Part shown: positions 2-6,145 of the stretch, piece by piece
Layout of the letters: every line of letters starts with the position of its first letter
Position numbering within the stretch: the first letter of the stretch is position 1
Source of the DNA: a virus
Virus record (IMG/VR): IMGVR_UViG_3300009155_000309
Span: 1-21,860 of that record
DNA: 21,860 bases
Direction: 5' to 3' (one strand)
Translations under genes and position numbers: made by a program
The notes under the pieces: model-generated
What the model was told of the DNA's origin: nothing
The model's input: only the letters and a program-made list of their open reading frames with translations
Databases searched by the model: none

Positions 2-217
2 ATGACTAACGATCAATTAGATCAACAAATGACTGAAACAGAAAAACTCTATAAAATCTGTATTCTTGATTTGCTTATAGCAATTGATGAGGATGTTGTA
101 GATTGGAGAGATCATCCTAAACTTTGGACTGCAATTCAAAAAGCAGATATTGCCCTTGATCTTTGGGCAGGAATGAATCTCAAACAAATCAAACAAGAAC
201 TGGAGCACACTAAATGA
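2..217 (+). CDS. Small hypothetical phage protein (71 aa), start uncertain at window edge
   Basis: I do not recognise a function. The 71-residue product is mildly acidic, with a short hydrophobic stretch (residues about 19-27, ILDLLIAID) that is too short and charged to be a convincing membrane segment. The C-terminal half is probably helical (ALDLWAGMNLKQIKQELEH). The first ATG is at position 2, so the upstream region and ribosome binding site are outside the window. An internal ATG at codon 10 is an alternative start. The stop overlaps the next ATG by 4 nt (ATGA), which suggests translational coupling and supports both genes being real. It reads in the same direction as the late baseplate cluster. 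Confidence 0.6.
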   Translation: MTNDQLDQQMTETEKLYKICILDLLIAIDEDVVDWRDHPKLWTAIQKADIALDLWAGMNLKQIKQELEHTK

Positions 218-405
218 ATATGATCTACAAAGAAGGATACGGTTGTGTATTCTCACTTGATGAATACAATGAACTTACATATGCTCCATTGTATGAGAAT
301 GGAATAGTTAATCTGAATGAGTTTGAAACAGTTGATATGGATATGATTGATATGGATGATATGGAAGTGTTTGATATTCGTAATCAATTAACTCGGATGA
401 ATTAA
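214..405 (+). CDS. Small acidic hypothetical protein (63 aa), conserved cyanophage type
   Basis: The N-terminal half (EGYGCVFSLDEYNELTYAPL, then YENGIVNLNEF) resembles a small hypothetical family I recall from T4-like cyanophages: an aromatic start, a 'FSLDE-N-YAP' core, then an acidic tail. No function is known to me. Residues about 40-53 are an Asp/Met repeat (VDMDMIDMDDMEV), encoded by tandem gatatggat-like DNA. The start is fixed by the ATGA overlap with the preceding gene, implying coupled translation. There is no clear terminator after the stop; the following DNA becomes extremely AT-rich. Confidence 0.65.
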   Translation: MNMIYKEGYGCVFSLDEYNELTYAPLYENGIVNLNEFETVDMDMIDMDDMEVFDIRNQLTRMN

Positions 406-478
406 TTGTATATGTGTTTGTATGTACTATTATAATGTAATATAATGATAATGTTATATTTAATGTATTGAGTATTCA
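399..478. other. Very AT-rich stretch beside DnaA-box repeats (candidate DNA unwinding element)
   Basis: By hand count, 14 of the 80 bases at 401-480 are G or C. It contains two TATAAT hexamers (431-436 and 441-446) and begins at the end of the 63-aa gene. It directly abuts the first 15-nt DnaA-box repeat at 485. AT-rich DNA next to DnaA boxes is the usual form of an origin unwinding element, but the assignment here is inference from composition and position only. The two TATAAT hexamers have only weak -35 partners (TTGTAT at 418-423, 17 nt before the second). Confidence 0.35.
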
Positions 479-484
479 ACAGGT

Positions 485-499
485 CTGTGGAAAACTTAT
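485..499 (-). repeat. 15-nt repeat copy 1 with cyanobacterial DnaA box
   Basis: The sequence CTGTGGAAAACTTAT is present here. On the minus strand it reads ATAAGTTTTCCACAG and contains TTTTCCACA (486-494), the DnaA-box consensus reported for cyanobacteria. Exact copies occur at 629-643 (opposite orientation) and 689-703 (same orientation). Three exact 15-mers within 220 nt of non-coding DNA are very unlikely by chance. Confidence 0.75.
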
Positions 500-567
500 G
501 TATCTCTGAGTTTCGATAGTGTTATTATTCTTTTTATGTCTGTTTATGTTGTTATCTTAGACTGCGT

Positions 568-596
568 ATCATAACACACTCGCCGCATAATGTCAA
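568..596 (-). promoter_or_regulatory. Leftward sigma70-type promoter
   Basis: Read on the minus strand, TTGACA (596 to 591) is followed after exactly 17 nt by TATGAT (573 to 568). That is a perfect -35 and a 5-of-6 -10 at optimal spacing. Transcription would start near position 561 and run leftward through the first DnaA-box repeat and the AT-rich stretch, then antisense to the 63-aa and 71-aa genes. No convincing leftward gene follows, so the product would be an antisense or primer-like RNA. The match is strong, but activity is unproven. Confidence 0.5.
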
Positions 597-628
597 TACC
601 CCCTGAGGGACTGTCAGAGTTCACACAT

Positions 629-643
629 ATAAGTTTTCCACAG
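629..643 (+). repeat. 15-nt repeat copy 2 with cyanobacterial DnaA box (inverted)
   Basis: The sequence ATAAGTTTTCCACAG is the exact reverse complement of copies 1 and 3, with TTTTCCACA at 634-642. The DNA after it (about 653-685) is a diverged direct copy of the DNA after copy 1 (about 501-531). Both share the order TATC, TGAGT, a TTTCG/TTTGC-like element, ATAG, then an AT run ending in ATTC. The array therefore seems to have arisen partly by duplication. Confidence 0.75.
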
Positions 644-688
644 ATTTTATAATTATCTGAGTGTTTGCAATAGTTTATAAGATTCGTC

Positions 689-703
689 CTGTGGAAAACT
701 TAT
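689..703 (-). repeat. 15-nt repeat copy 3 with cyanobacterial DnaA box
   Basis: A third exact CTGTGGAAAACTTAT, with TTTTCCACA on the minus strand at 690-698. It is followed 7 nt later by the weaker box at 711-719 in the same orientation. Repeat starts are 144 nt (copy 1 to 2) and 60 nt (copy 2 to 3) apart. Confidence 0.75.
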
Positions 704-710
704 ATAAACC

Positions 711-719
711 TGTGGATTT
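711..719 (-). repeat. Degenerate fourth DnaA-like box
   Basis: TGTGGATTT, which reads AAATCCACA on the minus strand. It keeps the TCCACA core of DnaA boxes but lacks the rest of the 15-nt repeat. It lies immediately beside copy 3 in the same orientation, as weak boxes often do in DnaA-box clusters. Confidence 0.45.
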
Positions 720-729
720 CGTTTACTTG

Positions 730-737
730 TATAAATA
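730..737 (+). promoter_or_regulatory. T4-type late promoter motif (TATAAATA)
   Basis: An exact TATAAATA, the T4 late -10 consensus (NATAAATA in cyanomyoviruses), immediately downstream of the DnaA-box cluster. Transcription would start near 745-750. No ORF of note follows for about 300 nt until the 55-aa gene at 1056, so the motif would give either a long leader or an untranslated RNA. A chance match is possible in AT-rich DNA. Confidence 0.45.
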
Positions 738-904
738 AAACATCTAACTCATTCGTTTGAGCAGCACTTGAACTCTCCTACGGGACCAAGAGGTAACAAT
801 CTGACAGAATGAAGCAGATAACCTATATCATACAAGAGGGAGTTTGAACACGGTCTCCGGCATAACAAAATCGTTGAGCAGCATACTCAGAAACACTTGA
901 TACG
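738..904. other. Gene-free, GC-richer stretch with a near-direct repeat
   Basis: I see no convincing gene here. The longest plausible reading frame is a 12-codon ORF at 809-847 without a ribosome binding site. The element TTGAGCAGCA occurs at 757-766 and 874-883. Both copies are preceded by TCGT, the first with one extra T, and each is followed by CACTTGA (immediately in copy 1, at 894-900 after copy 2). Short complementary segments such as GGAG/CTCC (840-857) are present but do not form a tRNA. Sitting between a late-type motif and early-type promoters, it could be a structured leader or untranslated RNA. That is inference. Confidence 0.35.
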
Positions 905-913
905 TTGATTGAT

Positions 914-922
914 TGTTATAAT
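914..922 (+). promoter_or_regulatory. Possible extended -10 promoter
   Basis: TGTTATAAT is an extended -10 motif (TGnTATAAT). The nearest -35-like hexamer, TTGATA at 897-902, is only 14 nt upstream of the -10, so the motif would have to rely on the extended element. It reads toward the 55-aa gene and lies about 75 nt upstream of a much better promoter. Confidence 0.3.
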
Positions 923-990
923 ACATAGCTCGTACTTACTAACCCTTTTTGAAGTGTATCAGATAAGGGTGGATTTGTTATATTCGTATA

Positions 991-1019
991 TTGACAGTTC
1001 GTTTGTTATGGTCTATAAT
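991..1019 (+). promoter_or_regulatory. Perfect-consensus sigma70 (early-type) promoter
   Basis: TTGACA (991-996), a 17-nt spacer and TATAAT (1014-1019): both hexamers and the spacing match the bacterial housekeeping consensus exactly. The predicted start is near 1026, giving a leader of about 30 nt that contains a strong Shine-Dalgarno before the ATG at 1056. Such promoters are typical of early phage genes transcribed by unmodified host polymerase. This one lies just upstream of a late structural cluster, so the 55-aa gene is probably an early gene within otherwise late territory. Confidence 0.75.
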
Positions 1020-1055
1020 CAAAGAAGTTCATTCTGTTTTACTGGGAGGTTTCTT

Positions 1056-1223
1056 ATGGTCAATTCGTATCTGTCAACTCAAAAGCATAAGTATCGTGTT
1101 ACTCTGGAACTTGATGTTCTTGAAGACTTTAATCCTCGTGATATTAATTGGAATAAACTCTTTAACCTTGAATCAAATGAACACGTAGATAGTTACGTAG
1201 AAGATCTCTCAGTTCGTTGGTAA
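1056..1223 (+). CDS. Small early-type hypothetical protein (55 aa)
   Basis: I chose the ATG at 1056 because GGGAGG (1044-1049) lies 6 nt upstream and a perfect sigma70 promoter ends 36 nt upstream. The same frame is open further left (from 909), but that extension would run through the promoter and is unlikely to be coding. The protein has a basic N-terminus (residues 1-15) and a core pattern, DVLEDFNPRDINWNKLFNLE, that I recall in general form from small cyanophage proteins (acidic-aromatic 'DFNP-INW-KLF'), ending EHVDSYVEDLS. The function is unknown. Its position beside DnaA-box repeats is reminiscent of the small rep genes by T4 oriE, but I see no sequence evidence that it is a replication protein. 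Confidence 0.7.
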   Translation: MVNSYLSTQKHKYRVTLELDVLEDFNPRDINWNKLFNLESNEHVDSYVEDLSVRW

Positions 1224-1324: not shown

Positions 1325-1476
1325 TATTGGTGGGCGATGCCGTCCATATATAAAAAAAGGGTCCTTCCTAACCTACAGAGGTGACAAAACGAGCTCTCAA
1401 TATCACTTGAAATAAAAAAAATTTTCGCCAAATTTTATTATGAAAACCCCCTATTGGAATTTTTGGAGAGTATTGC

Positions 1477-1830: not shown

Positions 1831-2601
1831 ATGGCAAAAGGATTTACTGTTAAAGCTGCTGCTCCGAAGCCCACAAAAAAGGAAGAGTGGGATTATGATG
1901 CGATTAAGGCACGTATGCGTGGAAAGAGCATTGTATTTTGCTTACCCGGTCGTGGATGTTCATTTACATTTCTCAAGGCATTTGTACAACTTTGTTTTGA
2001 CTTAGTACAAAATGGAATGAGCATTCAAATTTCTCAAGACTATTCATCAATGGTGAATTTCGCCCGTTGTAAGTGTCTTGGTGCAAATGTACTACGTGGT
2101 CCAAAGCAAATTCCCTGGGATGGAAAACTTCAGTATGATTATCAACTTTGGATTGATAGTGATATTGTTTTTGATTCACAGAAGTTCTGGCAATTGTGTG
2201 ATCTTTCACTCTCTGAAGATGGCACAGAACGTGAGATCACTGCCGGGTGGTATGCCACAGAGGATGGTTACACAACTTCTGTCGCTCATTGGTTAGAAGA
2301 AGATGACTTCCGTAAGAATGGTGGTGTAATGAATCACGAAAATACGGAATCTATCTCAAAGCGTAAGAAGCCATTCACTGTTGATTATACTGGTTTCGGA
2401 TGGGTGCTAATTAAGAAGGGAGTATTTGAAAATCTTGAATATCCTTGGTTCGCGCCGAAGATGCAGGTTTTTGAATCGGGTGCCGTACAAGATATGTGCG
2501 GAGAAGATGTATCATTCTGTTTAGATGCAATTGAGAAAGGTTTCAAGATCTGGTGCGATCCGCGCATTCGGGTTGGGCACGAGAAGACTCGTGTAATCTG
2601 A
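1831..2601 (+). CDS. Glycosyltransferase-like (GT-A fold) protein, 256 aa
   Basis: The sequence suggests a nucleotide-sugar-dependent transferase. Residues about 31-38 (GKSIVFCLPGR) form a first beta strand. YQLWIDSDIVF (about 104-114) contains the Asp-Ser-Asp (DxD-like) metal and nucleotide-sugar site typical of GT-A enzymes. Further motifs are TAGWYATEDGY (about 136-146), VDYTGFGWVLIKKGVFE (about 186-202) and a C-terminal CGEDVSFCLDAIEKGFKIWC (about 225-244), with the acidic ED-SFC element and a following DPRIRVGHEK typical of family-2-like enzymes. The acceptor is unknown: host surface glycan, phage DNA or a virion protein are all possible. A late promoter precedes it. Its stop overlaps the next ATG by one base (TGATG). 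Confidence 0.65.
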   Translation: MAKGFTVKAAAPKPTKKEEWDYDAIKARMRGKSIVFCLPGRGCSFTFLKAFVQLCFDLVQNGMSIQISQDYSSMVNFARCKCLGANVLRGPKQIPWDGKLQYDYQLWIDSDIVFDSQKFWQLCDLSLSEDGTEREITAGWYATEDGYTTSVAHWLEEDDFRKNGGVMNHENTESISKRKKPFTVDYTGFGWVLIKKGVFENLEYPWFAPKMQVFESGAVQDMCGEDVSFCLDAIEKGFKIWCDPRIRVGHEKTRVI

Positions 2602-3817: not shown

Positions 3818-4219
3818 ATGCCTCTAGAAAGGGTAAGTCAAGGGTTTAAAGATCTTAGTATGACTTTTCAATATAATCCATTGAATAATGACTTAATTGC
3901 TCTTAAAAACGAGACAGCAATTGCACGTTCAATTCGCAATATCGTTTTTACCTTACCTGGCGAGAAGTTTTTTAATCCAAATTTTGGATCTAGAATTAGT
4001 AGATCACTTTTTGAAAATAATGACAGTGCATCTGCAAATATAATTCAAAATGAAATTGAAAATTCAATTAAAAATTATGAACCACGAGTTGCTTTATCTA
4101 GTGTTGATGTAGTTCCAAATTATGATAGCAATTCATTTGATGTGAGTATTGTATATAAGATAATAGGTGCAGATGTTCCTGCACAACAGTTAGAGTTCGT
4201 TTTGCTGCCAACCAGATAA
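3818..4219 (+). CDS. 25: Baseplate wedge subunit gp25 (133 aa)
   Basis: T4 gp25 is a small (132-aa) wedge protein of the gp25/lysozyme-like fold found in contractile tails and type VI secretion baseplates. It helps nucleate sheath assembly at the baseplate. The length here is nearly identical. After a short N-terminal extension, the family core runs through DLIALKNETAIARSIRNIVF, then LPGEKFFNPNFGSRISRSLF, with the characteristic EPR motif in NYEPRVAL (about residues 88-95). No catalytic function is expected. It is followed directly by gene 6: the ATG at 4220 abuts the TAA. The ATG at 3818 is chosen because the late promoter lies 20 nt upstream. An internal Met at codon 15 is a less likely alternative. 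Confidence 0.92.
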   Translation: MPLERVSQGFKDLSMTFQYNPLNNDLIALKNETAIARSIRNIVFTLPGEKFFNPNFGSRISRSLFENNDSASANIIQNEIENSIKNYEPRVALSSVDVVPNYDSNSFDVSIVYKIIGADVPAQQLEFVLLPTR

Positions 4220-6145
4220 ATGCCATTAGTAAATTTTACAAATCTGGATTTTGACCAGATAAAAACTACTCTTAGAGATTATTTGAGAGCAAACTCAAAT
4301 TTTACAGATTATAATTTTGATGGATCTAATCTATCATCAATTCTTGATGTGTTGGCATACAATACATATATCACATCATATAATGCAAATATGGTGGCAA
4401 ATGAATTGTTTATTGATAGTGCAACACTCAGAGAAAATGTTGTTGCACTTGCAAGAAATATTGGTTATGTTCCTCGTTCAAAAAAAGCAGCAAGTGCAGT
4501 TATAAGTTTCTTTGTTGATACTACAAACATTACTCCTTCACCATCAACATTAACATTAAAAAAAGGACCTGTAGCAGCAACTGCAAATCAGTTTGGTAAT
4601 CAATCATTTATATTTTCAATACTTGATGATATTACAGTTCCTGTAATTAATAATATTGCATCATTTGATAATATAAAAGTTTATGAAGGTATTTTATTAT
4701 CAAGTTCATTTACATATACTTCAAATAATCCAAATCAAAAATTTGTTTTACAAAATAGTGGAATTGATACAGATTTAATTTCAGTAATTGTAAAGTCTAG
4801 TCAGAATACAAATGTATCAAATAAGTATAGTTATCAAGATAGCCTATTTGAAATAAATGGTGAATCTAAAGTTTTCTTTTTGCAAGAAATACAAGATGAA
4901 CGATATGAAATATTCTTTGGAGATAATGTATTTGGTAAAGCATTATCTGAAGGAAGTTATATTGAGATATCATATATTAGTACAAATGGGGATAGTGCAA
5001 ATGGTATCTCAAATTTCTCATTTAGTGGAAGATTGATCTATAATCGCAATTCACAAGAATATATAATCACTTCTGGCATATCTTTATTATCTACTGGATC
5101 AATTTCTTCTGGTGGAGAATCTATTGAATCTGTAGAGTCAATTAAAAAATTTGCTCCAAGAATATACGCATCTCAAAATAGAGCACTTACTGTAAATGAT
5201 TATGAAACATTAATTCCAGCAAAAATATATCCAGAAACCGAATCAATATCAGTATTTGGTGGAGAAGAGTTAGTTCCTCCACAATACGGTAAAGTTTTCA
5301 TAAGTATTAAACCAAGGATTGGAGCTTTTTTATCAAATCTAATTAAAGAGAATATTAAACGAGATTTGAAAAAATATGCAGTTGCTGGAATTGTTCCTGA
5401 AATTTTAGATCTTAAATATCTGTATCTTGAAGTTGAATCAAAAGTTTATTATAATACAAATTTGGCACCAAGTTCTGAATATGTTTCAACTATTATTGTG
5501 AATAATACGAATAAATATTCAGAATCAACTGAGATGAACAAATATGGGGCAAGATTAAAATATAGTAAATTTTTGAAAATAATTGATGAAAGTCACGAAG
5601 CAATAACATCAAATATCACAAAGATTCAAATGAGAAGAGATTTGAGAGTTGCTTTAAATTCATTTGCAGAATATTCAATTGGATTTGGTAATCAATTTCA
5701 TATTAAAAGTATGAATGGATATAATATTAAATCTTCTGCATTTAAGACTAGTGATATTCTTCAAGATGTATATCTTTCAGACATACCAGATTCTAATCAA
5801 AAAACTGGATCTATATTTTTATTCAGTGTTCCAAATACATCTTCTTCTACACCAACTATCATAAAAAGAAATGTTGGTAGAATTGATTATGTAAAAGGTA
5901 TAATTACATTGAATCCCATTAATATTACATCAGGTAAAGTGAAGGATGGACAAACTATTATTGAAATCTCAGCAGTACCACAATCAAATGATGTAATTGG
6001 ATTGCAAGATTTGTATTTACAATTGGATATTGCAAATAGTACATTTGAAATGATTAGAGATGAAATATCTTCTGGACTTGACCCTTCAGCATCAAACTAC
6101 ATAGTATCATCAAGTTACAATAACGGAAACCTAGTAAGATCCTAA
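4220..6145 (+). CDS. 6: Baseplate wedge subunit gp6 (641 aa)
   Basis: Gp6 is the main structural protein of the T4 baseplate inner ring, where its dimers link the wedges. T4 gp6 has 660 residues; this one has 641. The N-terminal signature is clear: YNFDGSNLSSILDVLAYNTY (about 32-51), then NANMVANELFIDSATLRENV (about 55-74) and NIGYVPRSKKAA. The central part contains EIFFGDNVFGKAL (about 230-242) and the baseplate-J-like IKKFAPRIYASQNRALTVND (about 309-328), followed by DYETLI. The C-terminal half is beta-rich. The gene starts immediately after the gene 25 stop, and the next gene starts one base after its own stop, so the three are surely co-transcribed. Confidence 0.92.
   Translation: MPLVNFTNLDFDQIKTTLRDYLRANSNFTDYNFDGSNLSSILDVLAYNTYITSYNANMVANELFIDSATLRENVVALARNIGYVPRSKKAASAVISFFVDTTNITPSPSTLTLKKGPVAATANQFGNQSFIFSILDDITVPVINNIASFDNIKVYEGILLSSSFTYTSNNPNQKFVLQNSGIDTDLISVIVKSSQNTNVSNKYSYQDSLFEINGESKVFFLQEIQDERYEIFFGDNVFGKALSEGSYIEISYISTNGDSANGISNFSFSGRLIYNRNSQEYIITSGISLLSTGSISSGGESIESVESIKKFAPRIYASQNRALTVNDYETLIPAKIYPETESISVFGGEELVPPQYGKVFISIKPRIGAFLSNLIKENIKRDLKKYAVAGIVPEILDLKYLYLEVESKVYYNTNLAPSSEYVSTIIVNNTNKYSESTEMNKYGARLKYSKFLKIIDESHEAITSNITKIQMRRDLRVALNSFAEYSIGFGNQFHIKSMNGYNIKSSAFKTSDILQDVYLSDIPDSNQKTGSIFLFSVPNTSSSTPTIIKRNVGRIDYVKGIITLNPINITSGKVKDGQTIIEISAVPQSNDVIGLQDLYLQLDIANSTFEMIRDEISSGLDPSASNYIVSSSYNNGNLVRS

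Follow-up and report, generated by a model that had tools for sequence, protein, structure and literature searches.

A conserved array of DnaA boxes of the host type precedes the baseplate genes in a subset of T4-like cyanophages: a candidate counterpart of T4 oriE

Introduction

T4-type viruses are thought to start replication independently of host DnaA. DnaA-dependent origins are known from other mobile replicons, P1 (oriR) and pSC101, in which host DnaA boxes stand beside the replicon's own origin elements. In T4, oriE is annotated at 79355, directed leftward and placed upstream of gene 6 (81081), with 5.1, segC, 5.3 and 5.4 in between. It uses an early promoter and contains iterons of undefined role (PMC3016281). 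For T4-like cyanophages, which are among the commonest viruses of ocean phytoplankton, the only literature on origins that we found concerns Syn9, for which one theta origin has been predicted (PMC2984593). The 9-mer TTTTCCACA is the published DnaA box of cyanobacteria, with binding experiments performed in other cyanobacteria (PMC4674748). We searched the open literature and found no description of DnaA boxes in T4-like cyanophages; earlier mention in subscription papers is possible.

Here we analysed a 21.86-kb virus fragment from IMG/VR (hereafter, the window), for which a first-pass annotation had proposed that boxes of this type, lying beside baseplate genes, may recruit host DnaA for replication or for control of transcription. 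We conclude that these boxes form a conserved array, a result that the comparison with relatives supports well. On an evenly balanced judgement, we further propose that the array marks a cis-acting replication-control locus, most likely an oriE-like, transcription-assisted early origin that would recruit host DnaA.

Results

Three host-type DnaA boxes in a non-coding gap

The window comes from a T4-like cyanophage (Kyanoviridae) and has an overall GC content of 30%. Its nearest sequenced relatives by gp6, nearly all Kyanoviridae, are S-SM2 (73%), Bellamy (72%), a marine single-cell virus contig, SynMITS9220M01 (62%) and P-TIM68 (59%). The baseplate genes run in the order gp25 (wedge; 3818–4219, plus strand), gp6 (wedge; 4220–6145, plus strand), a 4007-aa protein at the place of gp7, whose S-SM2 counterpart is annotated "baseplate wedge initiator", and gp8-like and gp10-like reading frames. 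Further upstream, a 650-nt gap without any convincing coding frame extends from a 63-aa ORF (214–405, plus strand; phrog_13427, PHROG match 6.4e-06), which ends at its left edge, to a 55-aa ORF (1056–1223, plus strand; phrog_12516), which opens a rightward unit (o55). A 256-aa phrog_1574 protein (1831–2601, plus strand) served as positional anchor for finding relatives.

The gap contains three exact copies of the 15-mer CTGTGGAAAACTTAT, at 485–499, at 689–703 and, as the reverse complement, at 629–643, each including TTTTCCACA and together spanning 485–703, just as the first-pass annotation had described. The corresponding DnaA boxes lie at 486–494 (box 1, minus strand), 634–642 (box 2, plus strand) and 690–698 (box 3, minus strand). 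They are the only three copies of TTTTCCACA in the whole record, for which shuffled sequences led us to expect 0.61, and all lie in the non-coding gap; none of 3000 first-order Markov simulations of the record placed three boxes within 213 nt. The weaker box that had been reported at 711–719 (minus strand) is also present, as TGTGGATTT, with three mismatches and 21 nt after box 3 (690). It is the decayed copy of a box that stays intact in relatives, 21 nt after the corresponding part of the array.

Was the box correctly attributed to cyanobacteria? In agreement with this attribution and with the published form, 21 of 36 genomes of picocyanobacteria, the family of the likely hosts, carry an exact TTTTCCACA upstream of dnaN, at a distance of a few hundred nucleotides and mostly in one or two copies. 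Since the phage box is the same as the published one and as that upstream of host dnaN, host DnaA probably binds the phage array. At the RNA level, no Rfam family reached its gathering score at the locus, with chance-level matches only below it, and folding of 720–1000 showed no excess (z 0.88). From the array to the rightward promoter, ~270 nt (720–990) show no ORF, RNA family or unusual fold.

The array recurs at the same place in many relatives

Because positions 400–1060 showed no DNA similarity to annotated phages, relatives were sought through proteins and through the box pattern. Eighty-six relatives from IMG/VR and a phage collection were chosen solely for encoding phrog_1574, with boxes playing no part in the selection. 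In these loci, 40 of the 44 copies of TTTTCCACA fall 0.09–3.1 kb upstream of phrog_1574, mostly at 0.9–2.5 kb; the reversed control pattern gave two matches in the same upstream zone, and its downstream total was close to chance expectation. With no motif preset, TTTTCCACA was the top clustered 9-mer upstream of phrog_1574 (14 loci, versus none in a comparison set of 412 kb of downstream coding DNA). The array precedes gp6 by 3.5 kb in the window and by comparable distances in S-SM2, P-TIM68 and Syn9. Box clusters upstream of the baseplate genes, which the first-pass annotation had suggested looking for, are therefore present in many relatives, in a matching position.

The array is usually the only cluster in complete genome records. 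It accounts for 2 of 3 boxes in S-SM2, 2 of 4 in P-TIM68, 3 of 8 in S-PM2 and 7 of 10 in DSL-LC03; 2 of the 4 boxes of Syn9 form a close pair, and the single-cluster pattern is also found in long IMG/VR records such as G001, G003, G008 and G010. The objection that such clusters might be scattered genome-wide thus fails. In S-PM2 (NC_006820, 19177–19333; 5178–5334 of locus L380), two tRNA genes are annotated over the array, an annotation that looks wrong because ARAGORN finds no tRNA there. One 284-kb contig (G005, IMGVR_UViG_3300027541_000009) carries two arrays, at 29.3 kb and 239 kb (L232, L260), and a separate phrog_1574 for each of them, with 78% and 87% identity to that of the window; it is probably two phage genomes joined in assembly.

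Conservation has its limits. The array was found in 5 of 17 reference cyanophages, plus one partial case, and in 7 of 29 unbiased contigs that extend 3 kb or more upstream; boxes are missing in ~70–75% of relatives. We considered a single phylogenetic origin of the array and rejected it, as array presence is scattered on a phrog_1574 tree that is itself poorly resolved. Two contigs (L130 and L131) are near-identical in phrog_1574 and in much of their flanks, and only one of them has the box pair; what sets them apart is that the segment with the boxes has been replaced locally, the flanking promoter segment being shared at 98%. Given this scattered presence and the difference between near-identical sisters, the boxes are not essential to all of these phages.

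A 67-bp core with an oriented middle motif

Boxes 2 and 3 delimit a 67-bp core (633–699, plus strand), an inverted pair separated by 56 nt start to start and enclosing a conserved, asymmetric middle; the core consists of both boxes plus 45 intervening nt. Counts of the bare 15-mer in IMG/VR were not used as evidence, because chance matches are expected often, and the spaced 22-base core was used instead. A DNA-only scan of IMG/VR for GTTTTCCACAG-N45-CTGTGGAAAAC identified 59 contigs. With the window included, phrog_1574 lies downstream of the core in 52 of 60 loci, 50 times at 0.76–1.9 kb and twice at 7.8 kb; gp25 is present in a further locus, and the rest are without these marker genes in the sequence retrieved. 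A broader scan for inverted pairs of the box gave at least 120 rows, versus 41 for the reversed control pattern.

Between the boxes of the 56-nt pair, the consensus reads GTTTTCCACAGGTTTATAAnnAnTnnTAGTGTTTGCAAnGGTTTATAAGAATTGCCCTGTGGAAAAC. The conserved middle motif of the window is AGTGTTTGCAATAGTTTATAAG (660–681, plus strand), for which the family consensus is AGTGTTTGCAAnGGTTTATAAG. Relative to the downstream gene, the middle points the same way in 29 of 34 distinct cores and the opposite way in one. The motif AGTGTTTGCAAnGGTTTATAAG is possibly the site of a second protein besides DnaA. Another conserved non-coding element, CCTAACCTACAGAGGTGACAAA, lies at 1367–1388 (plus strand). Of 84 related loci, 53 match it at 18 or more of its 22 positions, and its place is always after the promoter region and before phrog_1574. 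It occurs once per genome in S-SM2 and P-TIM68, is degenerate in Syn9, and could form a short hairpin (ACCT-ACAG-AGGT), with folding not consistently above chance. Because of the middle motif and this element, another site-specific protein probably acts at the locus.

When contigs are oriented by the downstream gene, related arrays are found in 104 of them (67 non-redundant with full flanks) and comprise 2–12 boxes; most have only 2–5, and the largest has 12 consensus boxes (L306). The 56-nt spacing is the commonest among inverted pairs (23 of the 71 distinct pairs spaced by 41–71 nt). Boxes on the same strand are separated by 21, 32 and 42 nt, with a helical period of 10.7–10.8 nt (R = 0.63, n = 226 pairs, which are not independent by descent).

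Divergent promoters, a leftward leader and an AT-rich stretch

Two sigma70-type promoters lie in the gap: a leftward one, TTGACA-17-TATGAT (568–596, minus strand; 11 of 12 consensus matches), and a rightward one, TTGACA-17-TATAAT (991–1019, plus strand; 12 of 12). Both had been placed correctly in the first-pass annotation, which called them opposed; they are in fact divergent, pointing away from each other. Promoter-like sites in the region generally showed no excess over shuffles. The leftward promoter, oriented against all genes, is conserved among relatives, as is its start, CTTAGATnACAA; in the window the transcript start region, defined from the alignment of relatives ("CTTAGATnAC"), is TCTAAGATAAC at 551–561 (minus strand). 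The promoter occurs in phages with arrays (S-SM2 and many contigs) and in phages without them (Bellamy and SynMITS9220M01). The leftward promoter is therefore the more widespread feature, to which a subset of these phages has added the DnaA array.

No leftward ORF longer than 26 aa lies between the leftward promoter and the upstream gene in the window, and the predicted leftward transcript would cross box 1 and the AT-rich stretch without encoding a protein. The leader unit of this transcript is strongly one-stranded upstream (112 left, 16 right; 18 and 14 downstream), as scored with an iteron profile restricted to upstream DNA, the unrestricted profile having been drawn to a coding site in phrog_1574. 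In some phages, for example among L125, L127, L134 and L165, the unit is repeated at 33–34 nt. The window has no such direct repeats above threshold, and its boxes, named iterons in the first-pass annotation, are not strictly iterons. No consensus RNA structure was found in the leader across relatives. On the other side, a strong rightward promoter occurs 0–400 nt right of the array at ~3.6 times the background frequency (67 arrays). Depending on the phage, a promoter lies on either side of the array, and this variability weakens both a simple R-loop model and simple promoter control.

The AT-rich stretch reported next to box 1 is real: 402–481 has a GC content of 17.5% and is a candidate unwinding element. 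The best 80 nt in the region, at 16% GC, belong to the lowest 0.3% of the record; other stretches of the record are equally AT-rich, since its GC content is only 30%. Among the 67 non-redundant arrays, 21% have a GC content of 22% or less over the 50 nt that lead up to the first box, versus roughly 4% in most neighbouring bins, and such a stretch is not general. DnaA-trios beside the boxes showed no excess of trio runs in these arrays, on either side or strand.

Discussion

Comparison with T4 oriE and with bacterial origins

The cyanophage locus resembles T4 oriE in its genome interval, upstream of gene 6 and separated from it by small genes, and in its leftward direction, its early host-type promoter and the lack of any need for a protein from the leftward RNA. 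A homologue of T4 5.4 (PAAR) sits between the box pair and gp25-gp6 in Syn9. As at oriE, a host-type promoter is directed away from gene 6 (596–568), and its RNA is a putative primer. Of evenly spaced short direct repeats, a further trait of oriE, the window shows none above threshold; some relatives have the 33–34-nt repeats of the leftward leader. There are differences: oriE sits in the 3' part of gene 5 and has 12-nt iterons, whereas the cyanophage site lies between genes and comprises DnaA boxes and the 67-bp core. The T4 genome contains three scattered copies of TTATCCACA, with no DnaA-box cluster and none at oriE. Synteny and the conservation of the leftward promoter strengthen the parallel with oriE drawn in the first-pass annotation, and we infer that the locus is a positional and functional counterpart of oriE with host DnaA boxes added. 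The only direct-repeat array that we found by T4 oriE consists of six 24-nt units inside gene 5 (T4 79402–79569; 4403–4570 of locus L497), which resemble protein-coding repeats; should they be the published oriE iterons, iteron conservation may reflect the protein.

Cyanobacterial oriC shares with the phage array the same 9-mer TTTTCCACA in several copies, a non-coding location and, in the window, an AT-rich neighbourhood. In common with DnaA-dependent bacterial origins, the locus has a cluster of host-consensus boxes in helical phase, the arrangement that a cooperative DnaA oligomer needs. Unlike oriC, it has no dnaN, no DnaA-trios and no GC-skew switch, its box order and 56-nt core are not the host's, and the T4-type replisome is the phage lineage's own. 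Cumulative skew had been proposed as a check, and the outcome was negative: no minimum or switch occurs at the array in five complete genomes. T4-type replication need not give such a switch, and skew is uninformative as an origin indicator here because nearly all genes are on one strand. Like P1 oriR and pSC101, the phage is a mobile replicon with host DnaA boxes; unlike them, it is T4-like, and no Rep initiator gene or Rep iterons were identified in the window.

Origin, promoter control or titration

If the locus is an origin, host RNA polymerase would make the leftward RNA soon after infection and host DnaA would bind the array. The bent or opened DNA could let the leftward RNA stay as a primer and let the phage helicase and primase (gp41/gp61) load. 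DnaA would thus be a helper in a transcription-primed origin and not the sole melting factor. The original proposal of DnaA recruitment, for replication or transcription control, is partly supported, by the host-type box, the recurrent single-cluster arrays and the synteny with oriE. Against an origin stand the presence of the array in only ~25–30% of relatives, the lack of a skew switch and of trios, an AT-rich stretch that is not general, the varying side of the promoter, and the fact that T4 oriE itself has no DnaA boxes.

These points leave room for readings without an origin. DnaA is a known bacterial transcription factor (PMC6015884), and on the array it might activate or repress the divergent early promoters, for the leftward RNA and the rightward o55 unit. 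The array does lie among strong divergent promoters, which are ~3-fold enriched, and in the window the core starts 38 nt upstream of the leftward -35. However, the distance and side of the promoter vary widely between phages while box-to-box spacing is exact to the base, and the leftward promoter is retained in phages without boxes; we consider promoter control without an origin unlikely. That phage DNA instead titrates host DnaA and stops new rounds of host chromosome replication, like E. coli datA, is improbable. A dispensable, patchy array would suit an accessory trait of this kind, the largest array has several times the one or two boxes typical upstream of host dnaN, and datA-type loci (PMC4585315) are likewise non-coding clusters of DnaA boxes. 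Yet most arrays, at 2–5 boxes, are small against the host DnaA pool, and a sink needs no fixed genome position, no strictly spaced, inverted 56-nt core and no oriented middle motif, all of which set the phage array apart from such loci.

Nor is it at all likely that the boxes are bound by a non-DnaA protein of phage or host, or that they belong to a packaging or other cis site resembling DnaA boxes by convergence. DnaA does not explain the conserved middle motif of the core, and a second single-copy element lies nearby, but the invariant 9-mer is an exact host DnaA box that also marks the region upstream of host dnaN. An oriE-like origin recruiting host DnaA is the reading that we favour, at about even odds.

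Implications

We tentatively suggest, as something short of an even prospect, that in a subset of T4-like cyanophages host DnaA has come to govern an oriE-like origin, or to act beside it, by means of a modular 67-bp element for DnaA and a second factor. This would be the first DnaA-using origin in the T4 superfamily, and it would couple phage replication to the state of host DnaA and so perhaps to light and the cell cycle. If DnaA acts at the array, the textbook DnaA-independence of T4-type replication is broken. A conserved element at a single locus offers a precise, testable site, present also in the cultured phages S-SM2, Syn9, S-PM2, P-TIM68 and DSL-LC03, and near-identical phages with and without the array provide a natural experiment. 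Many IMG/VR contigs (among L130–L209) end 1–3 kb upstream of phrog_1574, as if assemblies break in the non-coding region.
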